Below the pieces are notes generated by a model that worked only from the letters and a program-made list of their open reading frames with translations, made no database searches and was not told the origin of the DNA. The translations under genes were made by a program, and so were the position numbers. Positions 10,201 through 44,823 of a stretch of DNA of 64,000 nt are shown piece by piece (positions within the stretch are counted from its first letter, which is position 1; each line of letters begins with the position of its first letter). Source of the DNA: Metaphire vulgaris (taxonomy: Eukaryota > Annelida > Clitellata > Crassiclitellata > Megascolecidae); NCBI GenBank assembly GCA_018105865.1, contig CM030870.1:2589501-2653500 (forward strand). Direction: 5' to 3'.

Positions 10201-13200
10201 TTTAGATCCTTTGGCAGGCATGGGGATGTACACCCAAGAATTTCACCCGGAGACAAAGGTTTACACTGAGGTATCACCAGACGAAACTCTTTATCTAGTT
10301 CTTTACTCACAGCCTTGAAAGAATGCATAAAATCAAGCATTTCTCATCAGTAAAGCTGATCTACTAGTAGAGCTAGCATTTATTTTAAAAGACTTGGATT
10401 GATTGAGACACGAAGATGGCAGGTTGGTAACATGCTTAGAGCTGACTGAACTGGATCAACTACCACAGGAGCCCTAAGGACTCATCCATATAGTACGTAT
10501 GCAAAAAAGGCATATTTCAACACCCTCCTCCATTTCACATAGCATATATACAAAAAAATAGAAGAAAGTGAAGTTTCCTTTGTTTGATCATGGTAAGTAA
10601 GTAAAATCTCATTAACTTCTATAGCGCTTTCAAAAGAAGCACAGAAGTAGCTCCTTATTCCTATGCTCTTAATCTCAAAATGAAGTAGCTATAGCCAAAG
10701 GTGGGGTCATTCATGCTGGATCATTTAATCAAAAGGGCGAGTGGCTGGGACATTGCAGCTATGGAGGAAATGATTTTTTGAAGAGAAATGATTTTAATTT
10801 AGAAAGAAAAACATGAGGAGATGTTGCAAGAAGGAGAAAAATTGTGACTCAGAGTTTGTTATTTGGCTTTGATGTAGACGGTGGAGGGATATTGGAATTG
10901 AGTTCCAAAGCTCTGGTGCAGCGTATGAAAAAGCATGATTGTAAATTTTTAGAGATGATTGATTCAGAGGTCGAAGGAGAGTTACATGAGAAGAAGATCT
11001 AGTAGATCGAGGTTGTTGTGGAATTATCAGATTTCTTATGTAGACTGGTTTTGATGTATGAAGTGAGTTATAAGTCAATGGTAGTCACATTGCTGTCAAT
11101 TTACTGTCAATTTACTGTTGCTGTCAACCCCTTCAGTGCCTGTTGACAAGGTTAATTCAGCATTCACTCACTAGAGGGTGGTGGTAAATGAGGAGCAGCA
11201 ATAAGCTGTGAAAGTAAACGTGGGGCTAGAGGCATGATTGCCAAACTATATTCAAGATTAATGGCATAAGCCACCTGTGTTGCTGCTTGCCTCAGAATCT
11301 GGAGATCAGCACTGACTCCAAAGCTTAAAATTGAGTATGAGAACCTTTACAGATTGATAGAAGAGGAAGTGTGTAAATCATGAAGTTTTAAAGGAGAAAG
11401 AAAAATGTAATAGAAAATATTTCAACTCTGTAAGAAACTTTAAGCAAGATTAATAAAAAATTATATATATTTTTATGCCATTGGCACTTTGTTCCCGAGG
11501 AACTTATGATTAAAAAAATTGTCACGTTATGTTCCAGTTAAAGACAAGTCATTGGACAACATGCCAGAGCATTTAGAAAAAAAGTACTATATCAGAAAGC
11601 ATTTGGCTGAATAAAATATGGCAGGAAAAACAGTCACGCCTGCCTGTCATGCTTGACGGGCAAACAGCAAATAATTAAATAAGACATAAATAAATCAGAA
11701 CTGGGGAAAATATATCAAAGCAAGTAGGATTGATTCAACTCCAAGTGCATTTTTGCTTTCAACTCAGCTTAAAACTTCCCAAAGAAAAATCAAACTAATT
11801 TTTAAAATAACAAAGTAGGTAAATATAGGCTCCAACATCACATTGGCCAAAATCAAGCCTCTTCTTTCTTATCTCTAATAATAATAAAAAACCACATCAC
11901 ATAATTTTTCTTCACAGAACACAGTTGCATAAATGCACAACAAGTGCACATACAGTATAAATAATAATTATGCACTTCTATAGCACCAGTTCTAATACCC
12001 AAGATATCAATCAATGGTACTTCAAAATCAATCCGCAAAAGATCCAGGTCATTCCAGAGATCAGTCAGAGGGAGAGAGTGAGACGGACTATGGAGGAAAC
12101 GCCAATGGAAAGACATGTGTCTTAAGTCTGGATCGGAAGATGCTTAATGAATTGGAAGATCTGACAGCCGGAGGGAGAGAGTTCCAGATTTTAGGCCCAG
12201 AAATAGAAAAAGCTCTCTTATAATCACAGAATCTGCTTGTCTTATAAAAATGTGTAACATGCAAATTGCATGTATGAAAATATGGCATATGTATGACCAA
12301 TGTACATGTATTCAGCAATAATAGAATATGTGAGAAGCATTAATTTATATAATTTATGTAGATCTTTTAGACCAAGAACTGCATTCTGCTTAACCCCTTA
12401 AGTGCCATGTTGACAAGCGCTGCCTGTCATATACTGTATACCATAGACACCATACATTTGACACCATCGAAAGGGTTAAAATAGCTTACAGAGCTCTTAC
12501 AGTAAATGATAACAAAAGAAAATAATAAAAGACCTGCACAGTTGTCACAAACTGAATTGTACTGACGAAAGCCAAATAAGAATTTGGCTCAAAGTTGTGA
12601 CGAATGGTTTCCATGAAGTGCAGTGTGTCTATTTTAATGTCAACAAACACATACAGCATGTTGATTCCGGCTGTAGTGTCAATTGGAACTGTTGAAAAAC
12701 AACTGCAAAACATTAAATTGTATTCCCTCTAATAACACAATTACATAGTTATTTCATGGTGCTTTGCCTGAAAGATATAAATAGCAAGCAGATAGCATTT
12801 CATGAAACCTTTTAATAATTTTTAATAAAAATTAATTATTAGTTCATTTAAAATTTTCAATCAAACATAATGTATTCCAAGCAAGAAATGCAAGAATGTT
12901 AACCGAATCTCTTAATATAAATCTCAAATTTTCACTTTTAAATTTTCAACTCAAACTGTAAAATCATTGATGGATGGAAATAGTGTGAGTAGAAGAGTTA
13001 TGCTATCTTGGAAGATTAACAAACATCAAATGTCAGAAAAAAATAAAGGAAAGAATTGCCATGGGAAAGAAGGCTTTACAAACAGAAGAGAACTACTGAG
13101 AAGAAACCTAAGCCGCAACCTGAGAAAACGATCGGTCAAAACACTGATTTGGCCAGTGATGCTCTATGGGTCAGAAACATGGAACTTAGAAAAGAGGGCA

Positions 13201-16200: not shown

Positions 16201-19200
16201 GTGCAAAAGATGCAATTAGCGCACAATATGTGCGCTAAAAGAGTCTTGACACAGCCATGGACAAGCATAGGCGCATAATCAACGTAACCAAAAATCAGCT
16301 ATAACTTTTGAAATATGCGACCCATCGTTCTAATTTCAGCTTTCGCTCATGCGCTAATTTATTTAAGATCGTATTTCAGTGAGATATTTGATGGATGGCT
16401 TTTAATAAACTGAAAATAAGGGTTTTGAAGGTCCCATGGTAAGAATCAGATCTCCAGTAGTTATCCGTAGACGTGCGGCTATGACGCCGTAGGTTCCAGT
16501 AGCTGGTAACAATAGACGAGAAATGCAAATTCTCCACAATAGTATACTGCACTGCGAGCGAAGCGATCATCTTTCTAGTTAATATCTTAAGGACTTATGT
16601 TAACTGTATGCTATTTATTTCTCAGACATATCAAGGACTTAGGTTAATTGTCTGCTAGTTATAGTTATTTCATATTTATTACCACATTCTTAGGGTACCT
16701 CCCTGCGAGAACATCGTTCCCTTTTGGTACCTTTAAAATAAAATTCTTATAATAATTCTATAATTCTTGTTCTTCTTCTTTAGGTGCTGTGTATTTCTAC
16801 ATTAGCGACCATGGATGCGGGCAATGTGAGGGTGTAGGCTTTCTGATTAAAATTTTACAGGATATAAATTTTTTGCAGGCTATCCGCGGGTGCGGACTAC
16901 CCGCAGGGTGCAGGCAGTTTGCACAAAATACGGTATTATTCCCATGCCCACAACAGCGTAGTAGGCAACTACAAGTAACTATGGGGCCTCTACGGAACTG
17001 TTATAAGCGCACAAAGTAAAATGACAAAAGCCAAAATACAAATAATAAATTTTAGACTTTATGACAGCATATTAGCAATTCCTACTTGAAAAATGTTTTT
17101 AAGGTCATTAGTTCTTGTAATGGGGTCTGGAATGAAGCCCCAGTCGCAGAAATTTTTAGTAATATTAGAATTAAATGGTGAGCTTTGGTGCATATTTTAA
17201 AGACTTTAATCATGATCAATAACTGCTTGACCAAAAGCTGTAATGTAACTACGCATATCGATTCTGTTAACAATCACCCTTCCCATAAAAAATTATCGCT
17301 TTTGAGCAAATCCAATTACTGATCCCAGCCCGAATAGGGGTGTATGGCCCTCCTTGTGGCTAAGTCAATTTTGCCAAGAACCTTTGCGATTCTTTACGAC
17401 GCTTCTATAAAGTTTATTTACTTGAGGAAGAGGTTTCCAGCAACAACTTAAAGGCCATACCTAGATTTTATCTGATTGGAAGGTTGACTGTGGCTTTGAT
17501 GGATATTTTTCATTGTAAGATTGAGCATGTGCTGACTCAAAATGTCTCTTGATATTGATATTTTTAATTACACTTGGGGTCTCGTGGCAGATAGGCCTAA
17601 TAGACACCAGCTGTGTATTGTGTCGGTCAAGTAAAATAAAGAAATAATCATCTGTTCATGACTTATGCCTCTCCGCCATATGTACAGGGTGTAAAAGTGA
17701 AAAGGGCACCCCTTTATGATATTTAATATCTCGGCTGCGTGTATAGCGATTTCAATGAAATTTATAGGCCATATACCTGGGAATGTTTTTGATGCAATTG
17801 CCAAATTTCATGCTGATACCTTTAGAGTTTGCTGAAATATGGCCAAAAAACTAAAGAGACCCACATTTTGAAATTGACATTGGAATATTACGTCATAATA
17901 AAGTGATAAAAACATTTTAAAAAGTTTTTTTGGCCCTGAACGTAAAGGGGGTTTCAGATGATTTGTTGCGTGAGCAGGTGCTCAAAATGCCCATGCACCC
18001 TTAGCCTTCACACATGCTGACAAGCGCTTCTTCACTGACAATATCGACTTCTCAATCTGGTCTTCAGGCAAACTCTCCCAGATATTCTTCAGCACAGTCT
18101 TCAACTCCGTGATGTTCTGTGGCTTTGGCTGATACTTTTGATATCTGTCGAGCATGATTCCTCAGACGTGGAAGTCAAGTGGATTGATATCTGGGGAGTT
18201 GGGTGGCCAGTCATCTTTCTTGATGAAATCTGGACAATGTTGCTACAGAAAATCCTGGGTCCTGAGAGCAGAGTGTGCAGGTGTTCCGTCTTGCTGGAAT
18301 ATGAAATCTTCTCCAAGCATATCATGACATTCCTGCAGCCAATCATAATGCTGCTGTGTTTATCTGTTGGCCGTAAGTAACCATTGACCTTGTCTGGCCC
18401 GATGACAACGACGCTATTTTAGACTTAAAAACGATACAAATTACTATGACGTTATCTTCTGTTTGTCAATTTTAAAATTTGGGTCTCTTTAGTTTTTTGG
18501 CCATATTTTAGCAAACTCTGAAGCTATCAGCATGAAATTTGGCAATTGCATTAAAAACATACCCAGGTATATGGCCTATAAATTTCATTGAAATCGCTAT
18601 ACAAGCAGCCGAGATATTAAATAACATAAAGGGGTGCCCTTTTCACTTTTACACCCTGTACAATTTCAGCTGATTCAATAAAATGTTAGCCCACAATTAA
18701 TAAAGAACAGTATGAAGATAGAAGAAATAAATCAACTTATGATTGCAATTACAACAGAAAGTAAGTAAACTAACATTTATAATAATAAATGGATTTTAGG
18801 TGTTTTAGTATGTATTCTACTCTGTTGAAAGCCACTGAAATTCAGGCTCAAAATTTTTCCTACACATATTCAAAGCTGTGGCGGTCCACAAGAACCATCC
18901 TTGCGGTCCAGACTGTGGGCCGCAGTTTGAGTATCCCTGCGCTAGAATGTGGAGCCTGTCTCAGGACAGAGTATGTAATGATGATGGTGATACTGCATAT
19001 TTGCCACGATAGAAGCTTAGCTTTTATTATATTCTCTCCTTTCATTAAATTTATAAATTCATAAAAAGAAATGATCTTGAAAATATATTTATAATCATTA
19101 TTATATCATAGGAAGAAGTTCACATCAACACTTTCTTACCTAGACAGCTATGCCCATAATGAACAAGGAGATCAGCTCCAAGTGCCCTGGCCGTGTAGTC

Positions 19201-22200
19201 ATCAACACAGCAGGCACCATAAGTAACATCCCCCATAATTAAAGTATCAGCCTCTGTAAAACTTCACACATAAATGCCTGATGCAGAAAAACAATCAAGT
19301 ATATATAATTTCTTAATCCAGTAATAATTAGTTGATGAAAATATTCTAATAAATGATAACAATCAATTTTATAATAATATAAACTGAATGACAAAACTAC
19401 TGATTTTAAGAAAATCACATGATTACTACATATGCTAATAACCTTTCGAGAATATCCGCAATCGTACAAGCAAAGATCAGCAGACCCTCTGGAAACTGTA
19501 ATGCAACTGAATGAGACAAAATCACAGGAAAATATTTTAATTGACTGATTTCAGCAGATATCTTATGCAAAAATTCTTTGTCGACACAGTAACTAACTAC
19601 ATTAATCACGGCAATCATGATTTGAATTTATAGAAATCAGTAATCTCCATAATGACAACAAAATTTCAAACAATCACAAAAGAAATGGTTTCAATAACTT
19701 GAAATTAGTCCATATTTATTTGTTTCTTGAAATTAGTATTTGCTCCAGCTTATTTTAGTTTTTCATGCTTTGCTTAATTGTATCTAATTTTCAAGAATAT
19801 TAGGTATATGACCTAGGAACATGGACATTCATATGAATAATAGAGCAGAGCAAGTGAAGGGAAGTAGAAGAAAATGGTGGTGAAAAGGTTCAGTAGTGTA
19901 AGAAGATGCCTGACCTTGAAGTGCTGCAGAAGCAAGAACTCAATTTGATCAGAGATTGATAGGGGCCAGTGAGTGGTGGTCTGCATAAAATCTGAGATAC
20001 TGTTGTAGTAAGGAGCTTTTGCCACAAGAGGCAGCATTTAATACAGATTGCTAAGTAGAAAGAAGGTTTTTAGGGAGACCAAAGTAAAGTGCATTGCAAT
20101 AGTTTAACCTACTGGCAGTAAAGGCATGAACCAATGATTTGGTGGCAGACAGAAAGTGAAGAGCGAATCAATATAATTTGTCTAAATTGGTAGAAGCAGG
20201 AACGAGATAGGCTAAGCAGTCTGACGATCGTCAGGTTTCTAGCTCGCGATAATGCCACATATAGTTGGCCATAGGAAAAGACTGGCTGTGAGTACATGTA
20301 ATAATGTTTGCTCGCTCCTTCTCCTACTCGGTCTACATTAGTATGCGCACCAGTAGTTTGCGCACCTGGGAGTATGCGCACTAGGAATTTGCGCACCAGG
20401 GGCGTACCAGGGTTAGGATTAGAGTTAGGGTTAAAGTTAACCCTCAACCTAACTCTAACCCTCACCCTAACCCTAAACCTAACCCTAACCCTGGTGCGCA
20501 AATTCCTAGTGCGCAAACTCACAGGTGCGCAAACTACTGGTGCTCATACTATGCTACACCTACTCCACCTCATAATCATGTGCTGTATCATGTATTCCTA
20601 CCCTACAATCCTACATGTTCAATTGTTAGAAATTTCAACCTGTTGATGTTCATTGCAAATACAGGGATAGGTAAAGGTAAATGTTCATCTGTAGGCTCAT
20701 TGCCCATAGGAGCCGGTGCTGATCTCTGGTTTTTTGGTCATCAGCCCATGGGTGGCTAAGCCATTCAACAGCGGCCAGTCATTCCACTGAACCTGTGGTT
20801 ACCCTCTTAATGCTTCCATTGCTACTCATTTTACCATTGTAATTGAGCGAAGGCTGAGTCAACTTCTGTGCAAATGCAGAGAGCACTGGGAATTACTGGT
20901 ACTTAAAAATGAGGAAGGTGGGAAAGGTGGAGTATAAAGGGGAGGAGATCTAATCTAATCTAAAACTTCTATAGCGCCATTTCATAATGCACAAGAGCAT
21001 CAACCAATGGCACACCAAATCCAAATAATTAAAGATCCAGGTCAAATCCAGGGTATCTGTCCAGGCAAATGGGTGACAGTCTATGGTGGATAGGCCAGGT
21101 CAAAAAGACGGGGTTTTAATATTTTTCTAAAAATCTGTAATGAATTTGCAATGCGGAATATGGAAGGAAGAGAGAGTTGAGAGGGAAATAAAGGAATGAG
21201 AGGAGTGGGCAGGGAAAGGAGAGGTAGAAGTGAGAAGAATGGCAAAGAAGGGCTTGGAAATGGGAAAGGTAGGTTTGTGCAGTATAGTTGGAGAGGTGAA
21301 ATGGAGGGAGAGGGAGGTTGTAGACAGTGGCGGCTCTAGGATTTGGCAAGTGGGGGGGCCGTTGGGAGGCAACTTCTAATCATGGGGGCCAACCATTTGT
21401 TGTTTAATGTATGTAGCATTAAGTATAGGGTCCCAACTGGGGGGCCACTGGGGGGCCAGGCTCTCAATAGGGGGGGCACGGGCCCCCCTGTGGAGCCGCC
21501 ACTGGTTGTAGAGTTGGAGATAGAGGAGCGAGCGGAGAGGGGCGCGGAAAAGAGATTGGAAGAAGTGGAAGATGGAGGGTAGAAGAGTGGAAGAAGAAGG
21601 AAAGGAACAGAGAAGGGAGAGATTGGAAAAAATGATGGGATATACATGCACACAAAGTTATAAGTTATAGCCTATAAGCTATAAGATATACAGAGCCAAG
21701 CATTAATTAAAAATGATGTTGAGCTCATAATGGTGGTCATGATGATGATCATTAAGCTCTGCCCATTATGAAATTTGATGTTACCCATAGCAATGACAGT
21801 AGCGTGTCATCCAATGAGAACATGGTTATCCACAAATAACACACATTAGGAAATTATATACACAATTACTGAGTGCCCCACAGCACAACTAGGCCTACAT
21901 ACAGTATATAGATTCTGTTGACAATCACCATACCCCTCCCAAAACAATTCTCATAGGTTTTGCGCAAATTCTATGACTGATTCCAGCCCGATTAGAGGGC
22001 CAGGCCCCCTGGGCCCTCTCTTGACTGTGCCACTGTTTCCGCAACACCACTGAAAACCACAGTAATGCACTCTTTATTCAGCATGGTCAAGTGTACCGTG
22101 TACTATTATCATTATGTTTATCCCTATGGATAACAGCAATTTCTTTTGTGTGCCAGCCATCTTGAGTATCAATTCATTTATTTTCACTTTGATCCAAGAT

Positions 22201-23899: not shown

Positions 23900-24756
23900 C
23901 CGTATTTTCGCGCATATAAGACGCACCCGCGTATAAGACGCACCCGCGTATAAGACGCGGGTTTTGATGATTTGTGTTAAAATAATTATGGATAAGACGC
24001 ACCCACATATAAGACGCACCAAAAGGCGCTCCCGGCAACCCGTCAGCGCTCCCGGCGACCCGTCGGCGCTCCCGGCAACCCGTCGGCGCTCTCGGCGACA
24101 CGTTGGCGCTCCCGGCAACCCGTCGGCGCTCTAGGCGACCCGTCGGCACTCCCGGCGACCCATCGGCGCTCCCGGCAACCCGCCGGGCGCCCGCCGGCAC
24201 CCGGCGTCCCGCCGGCGCCCCGAGACCCGCCGGCGTCCCAGCGCTCCGTCGGCGTCCCAGCAACCTGTCGGTGCTCCCGGCGCCCCGTCGGCGCCCGGCG
24301 TCCCGTCGGCGCTCCTGGCAACCCGTCGGCGCTCTAGGCGACCCGTCAGCGCTCCGGCAACCCGTCGGCGCTCTAGGCGACCGTCGGCGCTCCTGGCAAC
24401 CCGTCGGGCGCTCGGCACCCGCCGGGCGCTCTCAGCGACCCGTCGGTGGCTCCCGGCGACCCGCCGGCGCCCCGAGACCCGTCGGCGCTCTAGACGACCC
24501 GTCGGCGCTCCCGGCAACCCGTCGGCGCTCCCGGCAACCTGTCGGCACCCCGTCGGCGTCCCAGCGACCCGTCGGCGCTCTTGGCGCTCCCGGCGTCCTG
24601 CCGACGCCCCGCCGGCGCTCTAGGTGAGCCGTCGGCGCAGTTATTCATGTTCCAAAAAATTTAGATAAGATGCACCCGAGTAAAAGACGCACCAAGGGGG
24701 CTAATTGTGTAAAAATTTGTATAAGCCGCGGCTTATATGCGCGAAAATACGGTAAT
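23900..24756. mobile_element. MITE with internal GC-rich minisatellite
   Basis: The 24-bp terminal repeats start TTACCGTATTTTCGCGCATA and are perfect inverse copies at each end. Subterminal ATAAGACGCACC repeats flank both sides. The centre (about 24026-24640) is a GC-rich array of a roughly 20-bp unit (GGCGCTCCCGGCAACCCGTC). The TATAAGACGCACC end type is widespread in animal MITEs; the superfamily is not certain. It lies upstream of the first DPH1 exon found. Confidence 0.88.
24026..24640. repeat. GC-rich 20-bp minisatellite
   Basis: About 30 diverged copies of GGCGCTCCCGGCAACCCGTC, with CGGCGACC and CGCCGGGC variants. It is over 70 percent G+C in a region that is otherwise AT-rich. It leaves all frames open on both strands (arginine, proline and alanine-rich), but these are repeat artefacts, not genes. 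Confidence 0.9.
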
Positions 24757-31069: not shown

Positions 31070-31270
31070 TGCACCCCCATAAAGCTAGCAGCGACGTTTA
31101 ATTTTGGCGAAAACATTTTCTAGCGCGATACTTTAGGCCGACGGCCTAAAAGTCACCCCGAATGCATATGCCAGCGAGAATGTAAACTTTATAAAACCAT
31201 CTCGCTCACCATATGTGCCTCAGGGTTTTAAATACGACGAAAGAGACAATCTCAAGGAAAGATCTATGCA
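31070..31270 (+). repeat. Outer module related to the satellite-armed element
   Basis: ATAAAGCTAGCAGCGACG, then CTAGCGCGATACTTTAGGCC with a GGCCGACGGCC palindrome, then GAATGCATATGCCAGCGAGA. The same module occurs at 43050-43180 (plus) and 36360-36480 (minus), each time near 170-bp satellite monomers. Confidence 0.75.
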
Positions 31271-31504
31271 GTGTTTTATACAGACCTGTTAGGAGGGATA
31301 TTCTCCCCTCACACCTCAAAATCCCCCCCAAATCCCAGCACTTACACACACTTTGCATAGAACTGTTTCTTTTCCCCTCCAACCAAGTCGACCCCTCCCC
31401 CTCCGAAAGCCTCAATTTCTCCCCAAGGCCTGGAGACGTCTATAAAGCTAGCAGCGGATTCGATATTCAGATATTCGCACATTCGCTCCATAGAGATGTC
31501 CAAT

Positions 31505-33410
31505 AGCCTAAATATACTTCGTGATACAATTAACTATTTCTAATACTTTTTAAAATTCTGCCTATATCTACACCGAGTGCTAGCCCTATGGGCTCTATCT
31601 CTTCAATAATGTGTCAATATATCTTGCAGGTCAAAAGTGCTGCGCAATTTAGACATTCGCCAATGCTATTTAATAGCCTAAAAATTCATACAGGGTAAAA
31701 TAATTTTTTATGCAACTTTTTAAAATTCTGCCTATACTAGCACACACCGAGTGCTAGCCCTCTGGCTCTACCCTGAAATATTGTGTCAATATGTCTTGAA
31801 GGTCAAAAGTGCTGGGTCATTTAGACATTCACCAATGCTATTTAATAGCCTAAAAATTCATACTTGGTAAATTAGTTTTTTATGCAACTTTTAAAAATTC
31901 TCCCTATATCTACACCGAGTGCTAGCCCTCTGGGCTCTACCCTGAAATATTGTGTCAATATGTCTTGCAGGTCAAAAGTGCTGGGCCATTTAGACATTCA
32001 CCAATGCTATTTAATAGCCTAAAAATTCATACTTGGTAAATTGGTTTTTTATGCAACTTTTTTAAATTCTCCCTATACCTACACCGAGTGCTAGCCCTCT
32101 GGGCTCTACCCCTTCAATATTGAGTCAATATCTCTTGTACATCAAAAGTGCTGGGTCATTTAGACATTCACCAATGCTATTTAATAGCCTAAAAATTCAT
32201 ACAGGGTAAATTAGTTTTTTATGCAACTTTTTAAAATTCTGCCTATACCTACACCGAGTGCCAGCCCTCTGGGCACTACCCCTCCAATATTGAGTCAATA
32301 TCTCTTGTACATCAAAAGTGCTGGGTCATTCAGACATTCACCAATGCTATTTAATAGCCTAAAAATTCATACTTGGTAAATTAGTTTTTTATGCAACTTT
32401 TTAAAATTCTGCCTATATCTACGCTGAGTGCTAGCCCTCTGGGCTCTACCCCTGAAATATTGTGTCAATATGTCTTGCAGGTCAAAAGTGCTGGGCCATT
32501 TAGACATTCACCAATGCTATTTAATAGCCTAAAAATTCATACTTGGTAAATTGGTTTTTTATGCAACTTTTTTAATTCTCCTATACCTACACTGAGTGCT
32601 AGCCCTCTGGCTCTACCCCTTCAATATTGAGTCAATATCTCTTGTACATCAAAAGTGCTGGGTCATTTAGACATTCACCAATGCTATTTAATAGCCTAAA
32701 AATTCATACAGGGTAAATTAGTTTTTTATGCAACTTTTTAAAATTCTGCCTATACCTACACCGAGTGCTAGCCCTCTGGGCACTACCCCTCCAATATTGA
32801 GTCAATATCTCTTGTACATCAAAAGTGCTGGGTCATTCAGACATTCACCAATGCTATTTAATAGCCTAAAAATTCATACTTGGTAAATTAGTTTTTTATG
32901 CAACTTTTTAAAATTCTGCCTATATCTACACTGAGTGCTAGCCCTCTGGGCTCTACCCCTGAAATATTGTGTCAATATGTCTTACAGGTCAAAAGTGCTG
33001 GGCCATTTAGACATTCACCAATGCTATTTGATAGCCTAAAAATTCATACTTCTTAAATTGGTTTTCTATGCAACTTTTTACCTATACCTACACCGAGTGC
33101 TAGCCCTCTGGGCACTACCCCTCCAATATTGAGTCAATATCTCTTGTACATCAAAAGTGCTGGGTCATTCAGACATTCACCAATGCTATTTAATAGCCTA
33201 AAAATTCATACTTGGTAAATTAGTTTTTTATGCAACTTTTTAAAATTCTGCCTATACCTACACCGAGTGCTAGACCTCTGCGCTCTACCCCTGAAATATT
33301 GTGTCAATATGCCTTGCAGGTCAAAAGTGCTGGGCCATTTAGACATTCACCAATGCTATTTAATAGCCTAAAAATTCATACTCCGTACATTAATTCTTTA
33401 TGCAACTTTT
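31505..33410 (+). repeat. 170-bp satellite array, left arm
   Basis: About 11 head-to-tail monomers of about 170 bp, each with CCAATGCTATTTAATAGCCT and CACCGAGTGCTAGCCCTCTG. Monomer types recur in threes (GAAATATTGTGTCAATATG, then two TATTGAGTCAATATCTC types), giving a higher-order repeat of about 505 bp between 31930 and 33300. Confidence 0.93.
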
Positions 33411-34374
33411 GATATTTTAAAATAATTTTACAGTGATAGTGTTGGTCTAATGATTGGAAGAAATTGCAGATATTCTCTATTCTGAATTGAGAGAATTTGA
33501 TGATCTTGCTTAACTGTTTTAACAGATAAATGGCGGTTATGAATTTAACGGTGCAAAACCGTAAGTGATAGGTTGTATAGCAAAATGCCTTTAGTTTAGG
33601 CATGTCTCTGATATTAATCAGTAGGCAAATTAGACTTTTGAAATTTTAATTGTTTTTAAGGCATAATTATAATCAGCTTATTTTTATGTACAGAAGAGTG
33701 TAGGCCTATGCAATTTGAATGTATATTACCGGTACATTGGGTACAATGACATTGATTTTATATCATTTATTTTATTGCAAAATTTTTCTCCTAAGGTATA
33801 CATGCCTACCAGATATTTCTTTAGTATTTGCATTTGAAGGAAGTATTCACTGAACAACATACCGGCATATATATTTTTAAAGCCAACAATTTTCATAAGG
33901 ATGCCTTTTTAATGAACACTGTTTAGCTTAAAGTTTTTCAACTACAGACAGTCAGCCAAAGCAACATTGCACATGCAAAGCATGGGAAGATAGGAATACT
34001 GTTATATAAACATGTGCAGTGGCGCTTCCACTATGGTGATGATGGGGATGCCTTCACCCACCAGGACTCCGGATGACCATTTTAGCCTGTCAACCTATTT
34101 TCTGGTGAGTGTTTAAAAATATAGTGAAAAATACTGTTAATGATCTTTTTGCTTGTCGGCCCTTTTTTTGGCAAGGTTTATTAACATTTAGTGGGCAAAG
34201 CACCAACATTGACCTTTTTTCCTTTCTTTTTTTCTTCACATTCCACCCCACCACCATGCAACTTACTATAAACTTTTATCCATCCTCCCCACCAATAATT
34301 TCTGGGATTGCCACATATAATATGTGGCAAAGCATTTGCTCACCATTAGTAGATTGAACATTCATGAAAATACC

Positions 34375-34665
34375 TTTTTTAAAAAAAGCGAGAAACCGTA
34401 TTCTCTATACAAGCAATACAAAATAATTCAATTAAGTCACCTTAAACAACATGAAGCAATTCTTACAGGAGTAAAGCCGTCTGCTTGTAAAATATGTGAT
34501 AAACCATGAAGACATTTATCAGCCTTCAACGCCCTGAAAGAACTAATACCGAGAAAAACCGAATGTTTTAGGTATTTTAGGCAATCATTATTAAGTCATG
34601 TAATCACTCTTGAATGCCATTATATAATTCATGCCGGAGAAATAATCTTAATTGAATTTCACATT
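34375..34665 (+). pseudogene. C2H2 zinc-finger relic
   Basis: The frame reads EKPYSLYKQYKIIQLSHLKQ, then HEAILTGVKPSACKICDKP, stop, RHLSAFNAL. The TG-KP linkers and C-x2-C are clear but several ligands are lost (Y for C, L for H). Confidence 0.72.
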
Positions 34666-35624
34666 AATTTCATTAAAATAATTGACAATTAAATGACTTC
34701 AATTGATTGAAATTAAAATAATACTTTATTATATCAAACGTTTACTATATGCGTTAGCATTGTTAATATATACGATAAGGGGAGGTGTAGTATTCTGCAT
34801 GATCTATAGAAAGGAAGGAAATAGCAACATATTTTAATAGTTAACATAAGGACGAGGTTGAATTTAGGCTATGAAATAAATTTGTATAAACACTGAATGG
34901 GCAGAAACTTTTTACGTAAAGGAACTGCAACCTGCAAAATGATTGATACACATAAGTCAATTAAAATTGTTAAGGTGTTCCAATATATACATATATGAAT
35001 AGGCATACATATATTCCGGTGACAGAAAAAAGTTTCATAAAATCGTGAGGTCTCCTTTGAATCTAATAAGCTAACTATTCTAAATAACAATCTGCACAGA
35101 AGTGTAAAAACAATATAACTTTTACATAGAATAAGAACTATAAATTGTATGGTACAACTTACAATTACTCTACTTGAAATGTTAATGAAAAATATATTTC
35201 AGTAACTTTCTCTCACATACAATCTTATATAACCAATACCAAAAAACCACCAAAATTAATTACATCCATATTTGCAAACCATACAGTAATGGTTTCTCTT
35301 AATTCATATGCATTACACTCTATTGTACTCAAAGCTTATTGTCTCGTTCTCAGATGGCAAATCCTTGTAATGTTTTTAAAACATTTATGTGACTATAATA
35401 ATGATGGGTAACATATTTACATGAAGCACAATAAGCACAGTGAAGAGTACGTAAACTAATAAACTTGTTATATTGTACAAATATGTCATCGCCAAAAAAC
35501 TGCATAAGAATGTTCTTTAAAAGGATTCCCAGTCCAACATCTAAATTTTTAAAATGATTCAAGAGCTGCACTTTGGAGTAAAATAGATTTCTCCAAAGGC
35601 ATCCAAGAGTGGAAAAATACTGAA

Positions 35625-35775
35625 TGATTTATCACTCATTTCACCAACATCCCGCTTGTTGTCTGTATGAACTCTTTCTTGGCATTCATGACTGGTTTAA
35701 TGACTACATAATTTGTCACATACTGTGCTCAAATACGGTTTCTCTCCTCTTAATTCTTGGAAAGCTCTCAAGACT
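35625..35775 (-). pseudogene. C2H2 zinc-finger relic
   Basis: The minus strand reads LRGEKPYLSTVCDKLCSH, stop, TSHECQERVHTDNKRDV. It has an EKP linker, one cysteine pair partly kept and an H-x3-H-T end. Confidence 0.6.
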
Positions 35776-35798
35776 CACTGGTCAAGAGTTAACCTGTG

Positions 35799-35832
35799 AT
35801 TGCCCGTCGGGGTCGCGACCCCGACGGGCAAT
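35799..35832. repeat. Perfect 34-bp GC-rich palindrome
   Basis: The half ATTGCCCGTCGGGGTCG is followed directly by its exact inverse with no spacer. It is about 70 percent G+C inside AT-rich DNA in the centre of the satellite-armed element. Confidence 0.97.
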
Positions 35833-35929
35833 GGCGGTTCGAGGATTTCAGGTTTGGGCTTAAATGAATTCATATGAAGTTGGCGGGGATGAAAAATGTT
35901 GCATAAGAAAATAATTTACCGAGTATTAA

Positions 35930-36290
35930 TTTTTTAGGCTATTAAATAGCATTGGCCAAATTCTAGGCGGGCCAACACTTTTTATTTACGAGATATTTTG
36001 ACATAATATTGGAGTTGTATAGTCCAGAGGGCTAACTCATGGTCTGTAAATAGCCAAATATTTTATAAGTGATATAACAAACTAATTTAACAATGATGTC
36101 TATTTTAGGCTCATTTTTCACTCTGACTGATCACTGGAATGACCTGGTCTTCTGCGGATGTATTTGAAGTACCATCGATTGATACCCTTGGGTGTTTGAA
36201 ATGGTGCTATAGTAGTGCATAATTATTGTTATTATTATTAATATTACTATTATTATTATTATTATTATTATTAGGCTATTAAATAGCATT
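35930..36290. repeat. Stray satellite monomers and a LINE tail
   Basis: 35930-36060 is one diverged inverted monomer (GGCTATTAAATAGCATTGGC). 36115-36275 is a CR1-like 3' tail (GACCTGGTCTTCTGCGGATG ... ATT repeats), followed by another monomer start at 36271. Confidence 0.75.
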
Positions 36291-36359
36291 GGCAAAAGTC
36301 GAAATGGCATAGAACTTTTCCCTGCAGATTTAATCTTTCGTCATTTGTAAAATCCCAAA

Positions 36360-36545
36360 AGCACACAAAGTCAACGAGATGGTTTTCTAAATTTGACATT
36401 CTCGCTGGCATGTGCATTCAGGGGTGACTGTTAGGCCGTCGGCCTAAAATTTCGCGCTATGAGATGTCCTCACCACAATTACACCAATTACACGTTGGCA
36501 TCTCTATGGAGCGAATGTGTGAATATCTGAATATCAATGAATCGA
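36360..36545 (-). repeat. Inverted copy of the terminal modules
   Basis: It contains GACATTCTCGCTGGCATGTG, a GGCCGTCGGCC palindrome and GGAGCGAATGTGTGAATATC, the inverse of the modules at 31070-31270 and 31455-31500. It is probably a remnant end of a related element. Confidence 0.7.
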
Positions 36546-36839
36546 AGGAATAAACATGTAAACTAATATTATATATATATATATATTGATTCAAATCAAT
36601 GAATTGCTGCAGCTCTAACCTGGACACATGCAATAGCTTACCGGTATTCTTAAAATATTCTGGCAGTCCCCAATTTGTGTGATAGAGAAAGAGAAATTTG
36701 GGCACTTCAAGTTAATGCTAAAAATTTGCAATATGCTATCACTTTACTTTATAGGATAGTTTGACTTAAGAAAATAAAGGAACTACATAATATATAGTGG
36801 TTCGAGGAAACAGCAAGAAATTGAAGATATTGCAGATTT

Positions 36840-37005
36840 ATAAATTAGATACAAACACATCCTCTATTCTTGAATGTCATGAGAAAATTCATTGTGGGGG
36901 AAAACCATATGTTTGTAAAATTGGTGAAAAACATTCAGTGTTTAAGCCATGAAAGAAATCATTTTGGAGAAAAGCCATATGCATGTCAAATATGAGCTAT
37001 TGCTC
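36840..37005 (+). pseudogene. C2H2 zinc-finger relic
   Basis: The frame reads LECHEKIHCGGKPYVCKIGE, then KHSVFKP, stop, and after a shift EKPYACQI. It holds L-x2-H-x3-H, a G-KPY linker and single cysteines. Confidence 0.65.
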
Positions 37006-37339
37006 TATCTCTAAGTAATGATATGTCAATTTTATTGCCTGGTCATGATGATATATAACTGGTCTAATAAGCAACGCTGATAAATTGTTTCAAATGTTAA
37101 CATTACCCTATCCCCATTTACCACCAAAACACAAAGTTTCATTTTTTGCTTTTGTCCCTCAGCTGCCATTGAATGCAACATGCCTGTCACAGAGGAGGGG
37201 AAGACTGAATTCACTGGTGGGTATGTCAATAGCCACTTCAGTGGGAGGAGACTCAGGAGAGTGGGTTAGTTTGGCAGTGGGCTAACACTAGCATTAGAAA
37301 TACCTAGAAATTTAAAAAATTACATAAAAAATTATTTTG

Positions 37340-40300
37340 CAAGGCATGAATTTCTTAGGCTATTAAATAGCATTGGTGAAGGTCTAAATGACCAAACACT
37401 TTTGACCTGCAAGAGATATTGACTCAATATTGGAGGGGTAGTGCCCAGAGGGCTAGCACTCGGTGTAGGTATAGGCAGAATTATAAAAAGTTGCATAAAA
37501 ATTAATTTACCAAGTATGAATTTTTAGGCTATTAAATAGCATTGGTGAATGTCTAAATGACCCAGCACTTTTGATGTACAAGAGATATTGACTCAATATT
37601 GGAGGGACAGAGCCCAGAGGGCTAGCACTCGGTGTAGGTATAGGCAGAATTATAAAAAGTTGCATAAAAAATTAATTTACCCTGTATGAATATTTTAGGC
37701 TATTAAATAGCATTGGCGAATGTCTAAATGGCCTAGCACTTTCGACCTGCAAGTGATATAGACACAATATTGGAGGGGTAGAGCCCAGAGGGCTAGCACT
37801 CGGTGTAGATATAGGCAGAATTTTAAAAAGTTGCATAAAAATTAATTTACCCTGTACGAATATTTTAGGCTATTAAATAGCATTGGTGAATGTCTGAGTG
37901 ACCCAGCACTTTTGATGTACAAGAGATATTGACTCAATATTGAAGGGGTAGAGCCCAGAGGGCTAGCACTCGGTGTAGGTATAGGCAGAATTTTAAAAAG
38001 TTGCATAAAAAATTATTTTACCCTGTATGAATATTTTAGGCTATTAAATAGCATTGGTGAATGCCTAAATGGCCCAGCACTTTTGACCTTCAAGACATAT
38101 TGACACAATATTTCAGGGGTAGAGCCCAGAGGCCTAGCACTCGGTGTAGGTATAGGCAGAATTTTAAAAAGTTGCATAAAAAATTAATTTACCAAGTATG
38201 AATTTTTAGGCTATTAAATAGCATTGGTGAATGTCTAAATGGCCCAGCACTTTTGACCTGCAAGAGATATAGACACAATATTGGAGGGGTAGAGGCCAGA
38301 GGGCTAGCACTCGGTGTAGGTATAGGCAGAATTATAAAAAGTTGCATAAACAATTAATTTACCAAGTATGAAATTTTAGGCTATTAAATAGCATTGGCGA
38401 ATGTCTAAATGACCCAGCACTTTTGATGTACAAGAGATATTGACTCAATATTGGAGGGACAGAGCCCAGAGGGCTAGCACTCGGTGTAGGTATAGGCAGA
38501 ATTTTAAAAAGTTGCATAAAAAACTAATTTATCAAGTATGAATTTTTAGGCTATTAAATAGCATTGGTGAATGTCTAAATGGCCCAGCACTTTTGACCTG
38601 CAAGAGATATAGACACAATATTGGAGGGGTAGAGCCCAGAGGGCTAGCACTCGGTGTAGGTATAGGCAGAATTTTAAAAAGTTGCATAAAAAACTAATTT
38701 ACCAAGTATGAATTTTTAGGCTATTAATTAGCATTGGTGAATGTCTGAATGACCCAGCACTTTTGATGTACAAGAGATATTGACTGAATATTGAAGGGGT
38801 AGAGCCCAGAGGGCTAGCACTCGGTGTAGGTATAGGCAGAATTTTAAAAAGTTGCATAAAAAATTATTTTACCCTGTATGAATATTTTAGGCTATTAAAT
38901 AGCATTGGTGAATGTCTAAATGGCCCAGCACTTTTGATGTACAAGAAATATTGACTCAATATTGGAGGGGTAGAGCCCAGAGGGCTAGCACTCGGTGTAG
39001 GTATAGGCAGAATTATAAAAAGTTGCATAAACAATTAATTTACCAAGTATGAAATTTTAGGCTATTAAATAGCATTGGCGAATGTCTAAATGGCCTAGCA
39101 CTTTCGACCTGCAAGTGATATAGACACAATATTGGAGGGGTAGAGCCCAGAGGGCTAGCACTCGGTGTAGATATAGGCAGAATTTTAAAAAGTTGCATAA
39201 AAATTAATTTACCCTGTACGAATATTTTAGGCTATTAAATAGCATTGGTGAATGTCTAAATGGCCCAGCACTTTTGACCTTCAAGACATATTGACACAAT
39301 ATTTCAGGGGTAGAGCCCAGAGGGCTAGCACTCGGTGTAGGTATAGACAGAATTTTAAAAAGTTGCATAAAAAATTAATTTACCAAGTATGAATTTTTAG
39401 GCTATTAAATAGCATTGGCGAATGTCTAAATGACCCAGCACTTTTGATGTACAAGAGATATTGACTCAATATTGGAGGGACAGAGCCCAGAGGGCTAGCA
39501 CTCGGTGTAGGTATAGGCAGAATTTTAAAAAGTTGCATAAAAAACTAATTTATCAAGTATGAATTTTTAGGCTATTAAATAGCATTGGTGAATGTCTAAA
39601 TGGCCCAGCACTTTTGACCTGCAAGAGATATAGACACAATATTGGAGGGGTAGAGGCCAGAGGGCTAGCACTCGGTGTAGGTATAGGCAGAATTATAAAA
39701 AGTTGCATAAACAATTAATTTACCAAGTATGAAATTTTAGGCTATTAAATAGCATTGGCGAATGTCTAAATGGCCTAGCACTTTCGACCTGCAAGTGATA
39801 TAGACACAATATTGGAGGGGTAGAGCCCAGAGGGCTAGCACTCGGTGTAGATATAGGCAGAATTTTAAAAAGTTGCATAAAAATTAATTTACCCTGTACG
39901 AATATTTTAGGCTATTAAATAGCATTGGTGAATGTCTAAATGACCCAGCACTTTTGATGTACAAGAAATATTGACTCAATATTGGAGGGGTAGAGCCCAG
40001 AGGGCTAGCACTCGGTGTAGGTATAGGCAGAATTTTAAAAAGTTGCATAAAAAACTAATTTACCAAGTATGAATTTTTAGGCTATTAAATAGCATTGGTG
40101 AATGTCTACATGGCCCAGCACTTTTGACCTGCAAGAGATATTGACTCAATATTGGAGGGGTAGTGCCCAGAGGGCTAGCACTCGGTGTAGGTATAGGCAG
40201 AATTATAAAAAGTTGCATAAAAAATTAATTTACCAAGTATGAAATTTTAGGCTATTAAATAGCATTGGCGAATGTCTAAATGGCCTAGCACTTTCGACCT

Positions 40301-40740
40301 GCAAGTGATATAGACACAATATTGGAGGGGTAGAGCCCAGAGGGCTAGCACTCGGTGTAGATATAGGCAGAATTTTAAAAAGTTGCATAAAAAATTATTT
40401 TACCCTGTATGAATATTTTAGGCTATTAAATAGCATTGGTGAATGTCTAAATGGCCCAGCACTTTTGACCTTCAAGACATATTGACACAATATTTCAGGG
40501 GTAGAGCCCAGAGGGCTAGCACTCGGTGTAGATATAGGCAGAAATTTAAAAAGTTGCGTACAAAATAATTTTACAAGACATGATTTTTTAGGCTATTAGA
40601 TAGCATTGACGAATGTCTAACTGGCCTAGCACTTTTGACCTGGAAGAGATATAGACACAAAATTGGAGGGGTACACCCCAGAGGGCTAGCACTCGATGTA
40701 GATATAGGCAGATATTAAAATATATTAGAAATATTTAATT
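37340..40740 (-). repeat. 170-bp satellite array, right arm
   Basis: About 20 monomers of about 170 bp, inverted relative to the left arm, each with GGCTATTAAATAGCATTGG and CAGAGGGCTAGCACTCGGTG. At least five subtypes can be told apart by the segment after CAGCACTTT (for example GATGTACAAGAGATATTGAC, GACCTGCAAGAGATATAGAC, GACCTTCAAGACATATTGAC, CGACCTGCAAGTGATATAGA) and they recur in blocks, indicating higher-order amplification. Confidence 0.95.
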
Positions 40741-40924
40741 GTATGACGGAGTTATATTTAGGCTATTGGTCATATCTATGGATCGAATGTGTGAATATCT
40801 GAATATCGAATCCGCTGCTAGCTTTATAGACGTAGGCCTGGAGTCTGGATACAACACTGGATCTATGCCATTCAGATTTTCGTCAATGCTATATATATAC
40901 CCGCTAGATAGTATAAGAACGCTT

Positions 40925-41012
40925 GGTACCCAGGCTAGCACTGAGCATCCTATTTACGGCAAGCTGGAGGTACCCAGGCTAGCACTGAGCATCCTATTTA
41001 CGGCAAGCTGGA
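40925..41012. repeat. 44-bp tandem duplication
   Basis: Two perfect copies of a 44-bp unit that starts GGTACCCAGGCTAGCACTGA, just outside the right end of the satellite-armed element. Confidence 0.95.
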
Positions 41013-41855: not shown

Positions 41856-42777
41856 GTTTCCATCCGACAAGCAACGAAGTGACCGATGGGCAGTTAAACA
41901 CGCCGACAAGGTGAATCAACTGGCAGTTTGTGGAAGCCTGGCAATCGGGCTGTTGTGTGCTCTGAACACTTTCTTCCAGCGATTTCTTCTGGCAGTGGGG
42001 CAGAAAATTGATAAAACCAGATGCTGAACCAACCGTCTTCTCTTTCGCTAAAGCTGTTAAAAGGCGAAAGGTTCATGCTGATAGAAGTTTTCCGACTGCA
42101 GCAAATCAAGAAGTGGTGAGCCAAGGTCATAGTTCAAAGGAGATGGACACGTTGCCAGAAGTCTATGTAACTGCTGGTGCTACTGCTCTGGTTACTGCAA
42201 GTGTTACATTGCCTGATCACGAATACTGCATAAACCAAAGTCCGAGAAAGTTGGCAGGAACAGTACGTTCTCTTGTGCAACGACTGCACGACAGAACTGC
42301 TACTTTGCGAAATGCACAACGCCGTGAAAGCAGACTTAGAGGTAAAGTTGCCGATTTGCTGAAAAGAATGAAGAGCATGCAGCTGTTGACTTCCAAGGCT
42401 GAAGACTTGTTAGAAGTGTATAAAGACATGCCTCTGAACCTACTGGCAGGCAAAATTGGCAGGCAATTTGGTAATGAACAGAAACAGTTCGCTCTGACAC
42501 TACATTATTACAGCCCTGCTGCATACCAGTTTGTTCGACGCCTTTGCGTCTTTGCCGTGCCCTCGCACGATTCGTAGCTGGCTGTCATCATTTGATGGGA
42601 GTCCAGGACTTACTATGCATTCGTTTGATACCATCGCAGCAAAGAACAGAAATTGTAATACAATGCAATCAATTTACAAGTTATGTGCTCTGCATGTGGA
42701 TGAAATGGAGATAAAAAAGCAACTGGATTTCGACAGAACGTGTGGCAAAGTGTACGGCTTCACTGACATTGGATCTG
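41856..42777 (+). pseudogene. THAP pseudogene exon 2
   Basis: It starts in phase (G+TTT) with FPSDKQRSDRW. A one-base shift near 41930 leads to WKPGNRAVVCSEHFLP, and another near 41975 to SDFFWQWGRKLIKPDAEPTV, completing the finger (C-x2-H in CSEH). Then comes a 170-codon frame with a basic helix (RRESRLRGKVADLLKRMKSM) and HYYSPAAYQFVR. A third shift near 42540 leads to DAFASLPCPRTIRSWLSSFD and LCALHVDEMEIKKQLDFDRT, with the first catalytic-type aspartate. The donor is GTTAGT at 42778. Confidence 0.85.
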
Positions 42778-43039
42778 GTTAGTGATAATTTCATGTGTTT
42801 AAACATTTACACACTGGCATACCTGTGCTTATTTTACAGACCTAAACAAAGAGTATGCTTATTCTTATTCAGTGGCATTCCTAGGGGGTGCGGACCACAC
42901 CGGGTGGCATTTTTCGAAATTGTAACATTAATTTGCTAATGCAGATAATCACAGCCAATAGGATGTCGGTTAACAAATTATCAATAAGCCATGTGATCGG
43001 CTAGGCTTATGCGTATTAAAAACATGGAAGGTAATGTAA

Positions 43040-43405
43040 AAATAATAACATTTTCTAGCACGATATTTTAGGCCAATGGCCTAAAAGTCACCCCCGAATG
43101 CACATGCCAGCGAGAATGTGAACGTTAGAAATCCATCTCGCTGACCTTGTGTGCCTCAGGGGTTTTAAAATACGACGAAAGAAGCAAGGAAACGTTCTAT
43201 GCCCTTTAGATATTCGCCAATGCTATTTAACTAAAGGGGTATCCTTCTTAAATTTTTATTTAACTTTTTAAAATTTCTACCTTCATCTACGCCGACCGTT
43301 AGCCTAGATGATTACACAACAACGATATTGAGTCAATATCTCTTGTGCATTCAAAGTGTTTGGCCATTTAGATATTCGTCAATGCTTTTTAATAGCCTAC
43401 ACTAT
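43040..43405 (+). repeat. Module plus two diverged 170-bp monomers
   Basis: Starts TTCTAGCACGATATTTTAGG with a GGCCAATGGCC palindrome, then two diverged satellite monomers (CCAATGCTATTTAACT at 43217; TATTGAGTCAATATCTCTTG at 43330). It is a small relative of the 31.4-40.8 kb element. Confidence 0.75.
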
Positions 43406-43449
43406 ATAAGGCTTTGGATTTTGTTCATCTTTGTTGCAGACTTTTCGCA

Positions 43450-43463
43450 TCATCCGCTCTCTC

Positions 43464-43520
<57 letters not shown>
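43450..43520. repeat. (CT)n microsatellite
   Basis: About 35 CT units. The serine-leucine frames over it are artefacts. Confidence 0.97.
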
Positions 43521-43524
<4 letters not shown>

Positions 43525-43847
43525 ATCACTGCTTGCCTTATTAATATGCATGAGCCTAGTCATGATTTCTTAAGCAACATCCTATTGGCTGTCATTATCT
43601 GCATTAGCAAATCAATTTACAATTTCGAAAAATGCCACCGGGTGACACCCAGTAGAGGGGTGACACCAAACTAAGAATTTTTTTGCTTGTCACTCACCAA
43701 CGTTTTCATCTCCAGAATGACGATAACCGTTTTTTGCTTGTCACTGCATTTCAGAAGGGAGATAATTTTTTTTGATTGTCACCACATTTCCGCACCGGGT
43801 GACACCAAGCCTAGGAACACCACTGTTGTTATTGTTCTGTCAAATTG

Positions 43848-43849
<2 letters not shown>

Positions 43850-43881
<32 letters not shown>

Positions 43882-43886
43882 TATTA

Positions 43887-43955
<69 letters not shown>
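43850..43955. repeat. (CT)n followed by (ATT)n microsatellite
   Basis: About 14 CT units, then about 24 ATT units, next to a CR1/SINE-like tail (AAAGCGCAGTAACATAGCTA) at 43965-44020. It lies in THAP intron 2. Confidence 0.95.
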
Positions 43956-43956
<1 letters not shown>

Positions 43957-44368
43957 CTTGACAATTTCTAAAGCGCAGTAACATAGCTAGGTGGCTAAAG
44001 TCAAAGGCGCTGTACAGGGGCTAAACGTTAAACAAATCGTCTATCTCTGTCATCTTTGACTGTGTCCAGCCTTTGATTCCAAATGATTTGTTTTGTACGA
44101 GTTAGCTTTTAGGCATCCAGCATAAGAGAATGTGTGTAGAATCCTAAACTGTAATTAACTTCTTTCTGCCAGTTGCAAATTGGCTGTTACAATGATACAT
44201 TAAACATTGAACACATGTTGCATTCAAGTTAGGTAGCCACAGTAATTTTTATGTCACTTTAAACTGTTAAATAGTTAAGCATCATGCACTAATAAAAAAT
44301 TTTCAATGCCTTTTTCTGCTGTTCCACATCAAACTCAAGACAATTTCTGAATGTTCTCATATGTTCAG

Positions 44369-44823
44369 GACCGCTTGACGATGATCAGCAACCTCAAGCG
44401 ACAAAGGTTCTCATGGTTTTAGCGGTTGGCATAAATGGTCACTGGCGTCTGCCATTGGCATACTGTTTGACTGATGGAACAAATGCAGAGTTGCAAGAAA
44501 CGTTACTGCGGTCAGTCATTTGCAAATTGTGGGATTGTGGCTGTTTAGCTAATGTCAATGCAATTTCACAGTTGGGGTGTCAGTTGGAAATTGCAGTTAT
44601 AAAAGACATTGATTGCTGCAGTGTCTTTGGACCCACAACAACCAGTCATATGAACAATACAGTTGTTGGCATTGACAATCATATATCAAGTTTAATTCGT
44701 CAGATAGTCAGATTTTATTTGGATATCAGAAAGTTTCATATTGTGAGAAATTTGAACATTCAACAGAAAGGCACCATCGTTCGTCAGTCAATGACCAAAC
44801 TAGTGTTATTCAGAAACCAATAG
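44369..44823 (+). pseudogene. THAP pseudogene exon 3
   Basis: Acceptor ATGTTCAG; GA completes GGA, then PLDDDQQPQATKVLMVLAVG, INGHWRLPLAYCLTDGTNAE and later ISQLGCQLEIAVIKDIDCC, stop at 44823. The segment that should carry the second catalytic aspartate (between CGCLANVNA and QLGC) is missing, and the frame ends early compared with THAP9-type proteins. Confidence 0.85.

Follow-up and report, generated by a model that had tools for sequence, protein, structure and literature searches.

A foldback-type element with 170-bp satellite arms, and probable degraded relatives of it, in the earthworm Metaphire vulgaris

The window analysed here is a 64-kb stretch (64,000 nucleotides) of the Metaphire vulgaris genome with a GC content of 38%, in which LINE reverse-transcriptase pieces and P-type transposase domains are present. 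It contains an element of 9.4 kb at 31436-40833, both limits of which are exact, and three degraded relatives lie within the same 12 kb. The features of the locus, in window positions, are as follows.

31073..31269, plus strand: degraded relative 1, in the left flank; terminus ATAAAGCTAGCAGCG (15 of 15 bp, at 31079-31093), then a unit called X
31426..31435, plus strand: target-site duplication, left copy AGGCCTGGAG; 10 bp, exact
31436..31501, plus strand: left terminal domain; its first 41 bp equal the right end; no clear similarity to the monomer
31502..33410, minus strand: left satellite arm; one partial, degenerate monomer followed by 11 of ~170 bp, in which groups of three form a higher-order repeat
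33411..37274, no strand assigned: centre, 3.9 kb; no recognised transposase; contains zinc-finger-like remnants as well as an old relative of the element
34361..34700, plus strand: degenerate C2H2 zinc-finger-like remnant A; zf-H2C2_2 at E 0.041 and 0.073, which miss the curated cut-off
35521..35790, minus strand: degenerate C2H2 zinc-finger-like remnant B; inverted with respect to A; no Pfam match of its own
35893..36535, plus strand: degraded relative 2, inside the centre; ~1.6 old monomers, an X unit and a terminal-domain piece (36495-36535)
36801..37080, plus strand: degenerate C2H2 zinc-finger-like remnant C; two pieces, of which one has zf-H2C2_2 at E 0.0011, again short of the curated cut-off, and one has no match
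37275..40767, plus strand: right satellite arm; 20 monomers of ~170 bp, with partial monomers on both sides
40768..40833, minus strand: right terminal domain; inverse of the left end
40834..40843, plus strand: target-site duplication, right copy; 10 bp, exact
43048..43399, minus strand: degraded relative 3, in the right flank; an X unit and ~1.3 monomers, inside an inverted-end element (42898-43644)

The sequence ACGTCTATAAAGCTAGC occurs exactly at 31436-31452 on the plus strand and at 40817-40833 on the minus strand, and a further site resembling it, with three mismatches (31073-31089), is part of the degraded relative in the left flank. In shuffled sequence the mean number of such sites was 0.14, and three sites were reached in none of 100 shuffles. 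The inverse ends are identical over 41 bp and differ at four positions within the outer 66 bp. The 10-bp duplication AGGCCTGGAG abuts both ends exactly; two random 10-mers from the flanking DNA would agree by chance with a probability of 6.9e-6, and a scan at the same spacing, which takes in the element's own site, gave a 10-bp match at 1 of 54,562 positions. The inverse ends and 10-bp duplication claimed in an earlier note on this DNA are both present, and the perfect end match extends over 41 bp, not only 17. Because there is a target-site duplication, insertion by a transposase or integrase is indicated. The locus has the features by which foldback elements are recognised: a target-site duplication at both ends (10 bp, exact) and long inverted ends of tandem repeats around a middle domain.

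Each 66-bp terminal domain is followed inwards by a partial, worn monomer and then by the array. Tandem arrays with a period of 170 and 90% matches were found at 31545-33410 and 37306-40720, and were cut into 11 monomers on the left and 20 on the right, in opposite orientation and pointing towards each other; the description of two facing arrays of one 170-bp satellite around a 3.9-kb centre was therefore accurate. The left arm together with its end (31436-33410) aligns to 40833-38847 with 90.9% identity over 1,995 columns. Its counterpart in the right arm is thus the outermost 2.0 kb, and the right arm is consequently about 1.5 kb longer, on its inner side. The 31 monomers are on average 89.7% identical to one another inside the left arm and 91.2% inside the right one, and monomers of different arms average 89.6%; since the between-arm mean is about the same as the within-left mean, the arms are not cleanly separate groups.

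Higher-order structure, also proposed earlier for the arms, was found in both of them, in threes on the left and as irregularly recurring types on the right. In the left arm, monomers three apart have a mean identity of 93.3%, as against 84.3-90.8% at other shifts, and monomers 3/6, 4/7 and 5/8 are identical at 98, 98 and 99%. The right arm has no single outstanding shift (means 84.4-92.7%), and several of its monomer types recur at 97-100% in irregular order, for example monomers 3, 6, 10 and 18, monomers 7, 13 and 15, and monomers 8, 14 and 19. Of the 31 monomers, 27 (8 of 11 on the left, 19 of 20 on the right) are most similar to a monomer of their own arm, the others being L01, L02, L11 and R12, the last of which matches L08 at 97.6%; in 25 of 31 the closest match is at least 94.7%. 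Judged from the monomer sequences, this would fit mostly local amplification from a common monomer pool, with exchange between the arms being possible. Within the 64-kb window, matches to the monomer (E up to 1e-3) occur only in the arms and in two of the relics.

Conservation in the monomer is highest over 20 bp, TTAGGCTATTAAATAGCATT, with a mean diversity of 0.009 versus 0.088 overall, and an equally conserved 20-bp window arose in 33 of 2000 column permutations. The palindrome inside this block, GCTATTAAATAGC, is exact in 28 of the 31 monomers; the 13-bp palindrome alone is not singular, because equal conservation is reached by 12 of 170 windows of that length. The junction of array and terminus falls within the TTAGGCTATTAAATAGCATT block, and the interspersed repeat of the relic in the centre also sits at it. 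Any role of the block in binding or breakage is guesswork. Folded as a single strand, one monomer was unremarkable (z -1.78).

A derivation of the monomer from the terminus was considered and found unsupported: for the outer 75 bp, the observed score was reached by 180 of 1000 shuffles on the left and by 40 of 1000 on the right, the latter a borderline similarity. The best monomer match of the left end consists of the last 9 of those 75 bp, where the worn monomer starts. When only the outer 66 bp were compared with the monomer in two orientations, 39 and 138 of 200 controls reached the score for the left end, and 73 and 17 of 200 for the right end; these outer 66 bp are not clearly satellite-like at the sequence level. 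The idea that the flanks hold further old satellite was likewise unsupported, with scores reached by 96 and 11 of 200 controls on the right and by 127 and 12 of 200 on the left, of which the lower figures are borderline.

The three degraded relatives share parts with the element and with one another. The terminus ATAAAGCTAGCAGCG of the left-flank relative has a mean of 0.11 sites in shuffles in which up to two mismatches were allowed. The relative inside the centre ends in a piece with 95.2% identity to left-end positions 27-68, and is split at ~36112-36266 by an interspersed repeat that is also found at 8414-8542 (89%) and 11960-12073 (87%). Common to all three is X, a unit of 180 bp, with pairwise identities of 79.8, 88.2 and 80.5%. 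The junction between monomer and X in relatives 2 and 3 falls at roughly the same point of the monomer, position 92-100. Compared with one array monomer, the relic monomers have identities of ~80, 76 and 84% in the centre and of 72 and 81% at 43 kb, set against within-arm means of 89.7 and 91.2%.

Both ends were seen in none of the three relics, and relative 1 has no clear monomer; the status of these sequences as relatives therefore rests on the common pieces, and their limits are partly guesswork. In a FastTree tree of the monomers, rooted on one relic monomer as outgroup with the root unsettled, not all relic monomers fall outside the array monomers, two short ones lying inside on long branches. 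The monomer, X and the terminus nonetheless appear to belong to a single family, in which the monomer had a low copy number. Because low-copy monomers are joined to X, and X to the terminus, in the relics, the satellite is probably family-owned and was amplified inside the family rather than captured late. Between them, the inverse ends, the duplicated target site and the relatives found within the window give good support to the earlier proposal of a mobile unit with satellite arms.

In the centre, none of the five overlapping ORFs of at least 80 aa matched a transposase family (Pfam, E up to 0.01). The Pfam scan covered 98 of the 122 stop-to-stop ORFs of at least 80 aa in the window, the 24 omitted being mostly overlaps with LINE or GC-repeat ORFs, and stop-broken frames entered it only as the zinc-finger pieces and one short exon. 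Eight families were matched at E up to 0.01 among 91 ORFs of the window, namely RVT_1, two endonuclease families, TNP-like RNase H, Diphthamide_syn and three weak ones, and there was no MULE family among these matches. A PHD-finger transposase was likewise not among the families matched in the 98 of 122 ORFs, and a non-autonomous copy would lack one.

The centre does hold three worn zinc-finger-like remnants, whose translations resemble C2H2 zinc-finger links. Four of the five places in the window where the motif G[EGV]KP[YFS] occurs in six-frame translation fall in these 3.9 kb, and four such motifs were reached in none of 200 Markov-model centres. Remnants A and B align with a score of 102 versus a best of 60 in 200 mononucleotide shuffles, and A and C with 100 versus 68, while B and C (70, shuffle best 65) are only just above. 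The remnants may be captured pieces of host genes or the remains of a gene of the element. According to the available text of one source (PMC6446971), MULEs are known to capture pieces of host genes, and Spectre is a MULE clade with a C2H2 ORF. At 35799-35832, just before the old relative, there is a perfect 34-bp palindrome that is GC-rich within the AT-rich centre.

We regard the element as a foldback with satellite arms, which is a known kind; a Mutator-like affinity is likely but unproven. The foldbacks TU of sea urchin and FB of Drosophila have long inverted ends of tandem repeats whose units are short. The element described here differs from TU and FB in that its arms consist of a 170-bp satellite and not of short repeat units. 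The paper on Tetris, a non-autonomous foldback of Drosophila virilis with TIR-220, cites foldbacks known from sea urchin and D. melanogaster (PMC4079207). From the available text of that paper, Tetris has an outer flanking domain and an array of a ~220-bp repeat in each inverted end; the ends reach 1,735 bp, the middle is variable and non-coding, the duplications measure 8-10 bp, and there is a shorter relative, DAIBAM. The length of the duplication led the authors to suggest Mutator (PMC4079207).

The order of parts is the same in Tetris as here (outer domain, array, middle), and the duplication lies in the same 8-10-bp range. The differences are that the monomer is 170 bp here versus ~220 bp (lengths, not sequences, being compared), that the arms are 2.0 and 3.6 kb, that the outer domain is 66 bp versus up to 866 bp, and that higher-order repeats are present, the term 'higher-order' being absent from the main text of PMC4079207.

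A second comparison is with Rehavkus-1_TC of Tribolium castaneum, the element of satellite TCsat23, which is described in the available text as 9.5 kb long, with a 164-bp satellite in inverted termini and arrays mostly of 5 and 8 (PMC10218199). As far as descriptions rather than sequences can be compared, the two are alike in their near-equal length, in the satellite in inverted ends and in having short arrays; they differ in that there are 11 and 20 monomers here and mostly 5 and 8 there. In the available text of PMC6446971, the Rehavkus group duplicates 9 bp, its ends are 26-400 bp long, it has a mini-satellite and a PHD-finger transposase, and it is listed from arthropods and annelids, while the MULE superfamily as a whole duplicates 8-11 bp of target.

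The M. vulgaris element has a satellite beside its inverted end, as would be expected for Rehavkus, and its 10-bp duplication falls within the MULE range. We do not file it as Rehavkus, because the duplication is 10 and not 9 bp and because no PHD transposase was recognised in the scanned ORFs. The Rehavkus-type comparison drawn earlier was apt as regards architecture (9.5 kb and a 164-bp satellite in the termini of Rehavkus-1_TC), whereas membership is unproven, no transposase being recognised here. To call the arms unusual, as the earlier note did, was too strong, given that Rehavkus-1_TC and Tetris already have satellite-bearing inverted ends. What differs is a matter of degree, namely the 11 and 20 monomers, the higher-order repeats and the short outer domain.

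The available text of a review of transposon-derived satellites makes no mention of Rehavkus or Mutator (PMC12628747), and in that of a survey of arthropod MULEs neither 'satellite' nor 'tandem repeat' appears (PMC13359780). No earlier report of the element was found in the open-access literature, which holds few of the subscription papers; an open-access search on sea urchin TU elements found nothing, and a text search for three sequence strings returned a single paper, about a human gene. The end pattern had no match in viral and prokaryote contigs and the monomer block none in viral contigs, both being uninformative for an animal element. Rfam gave no match at the gathering score.

In our view it is probable that the element is a non-autonomous foldback-type DNA transposon, served by a Mutator-like transposase that another copy would supply, with a satellite that was amplified inside the family. 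A cut-and-paste reaction, probably by a MULE- or Rehavkus-like enzyme, would have involved recognition of the ~66-bp ends and a 10-bp staggered cut. The 170-bp satellite would be a family-specific subterminal unit, present as one or two monomers in older copies if the direction of change is as we suppose, and amplified inside the element. Unequal exchange or conversion within each arm could then have produced 11 and 20 monomers, each arm with its own higher-order pattern. The Mutator-like affinity is inferred because a 10-bp duplication is combined with long inverted ends; the duplication suits Mutator-like elements and identifies no transposase.

An alternative that parts from this explanation solely over where the monomer came from is that the transposon captured monomers of a pre-existing genomic satellite, which then grew in the arms. 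In its favour, the outer 66 bp do not clearly resemble the monomer, and nothing thus points to a satellite made by duplicating the terminus; however, the two relics with 1.3-1.6 monomers have about the same monomer-to-X junction, so that the monomer seems to have been in the family before the arrays grew, and we consider capture possible but rather unlikely. Less probable still is a composite, in which two one-armed copies of the family, in inverted orientation, moved jointly with the host DNA between them (macro-transposition). Such an origin would account for a centre that resembles ordinary host DNA, in that it carries an interspersed repeat and a degraded relative besides zinc-finger-like remnants in either orientation, and for arms that are unlike in length and higher-order pattern. 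It sits poorly with a single monomer pool for both arms (89.6% between, 89.7 and 91.2% within), and the inner ends of two full copies were not seen, the sole inner end piece being the ~42 bp at 36495-36535.

It is very unlikely that the element is a P-superfamily foldback (Galileo-like) instead of a Mutator-like one: P-element-type domains occur at 41966-42577 and 44296-44823, the nearer 1.1 kb right of the element, but these transposase pieces are located outside the element ends, and P-type elements duplicate 7-8 bp, not 10. Finally, although only one full copy was seen and inverted arrays are difficult to assemble, it is scarcely credible that the locus is not a transposon but a satellite array duplicated in inverted orientation, or misassembled, whose flanking repeats match by chance, in view of the exact 10-bp duplication directly at 41-bp inverse ends, of arms too unlike in sequence (90.9%) and length to be one copy assembled twice, and of the recurrence of the 15-bp terminus at 31079.

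Returning to the non-autonomous foldback with a satellite amplified inside its family, we note that it bears on a debated question, namely whether satellites arise from transposons or transposons pick satellites up. Both amplified arms lie within 12 kb together with the three degraded relatives, of which two have low-copy monomers and one lacks them, and since arms and relatives have parts in common, the order of events could be readable from a census of the genome. If such a census agrees, M. vulgaris would provide a further genome beside those of Tetris and Rehavkus-1_TC, with longer arms and with higher-order repeats in a mobile unit. As a speculation that we hold to be more doubtful than not by some distance, the 170-bp satellite may have been born and kept inside the transposon family, with its palindromic TTAGGCTATTAAATAGCATT block held by the transposition machinery, so that each transposition would seed an inverted pair of arrays that grow their own higher-order repeats; the family would then be a transposon-borne satellite nursery.

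Several other features of the window may be recorded. Just beyond the right end of the element, at 40925-41012, there is a 44-bp exact tandem duplication. P-element-type transposase pieces (Tnp_P_element, TNP-like RNase H) extend over 41966-44823, and the 747-bp element at 42898-43644, which has inverted ends of ~97 bp and holds relative 3, lies between them. A LINE ORF is located at 1183. A 47-codon open stretch on the minus strand at 19123-19263 matches Pfam Diphthamide_syn (E 4.5e-19) and is presumably an exon of a host gene of the DPH1 type; a second Diphthamide_syn match was obtained among the 91 scanned ORFs. The GC-rich array at 24025-24546 consists of ~26 copies of a degenerate 20-bp repeat, and a 982-bp unit at 17681-18662 has inverted ends of ~220 bp with 93% identity. 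At 4543-4749 and 20339-20551 there are small palindromic units in which 15-bp tandem repeats form inverted arms around telomere-like hexamers (GGTTAG / TAACCC); the 15-mers differ, the plan is the same, and the two units look like miniature foldback elements.
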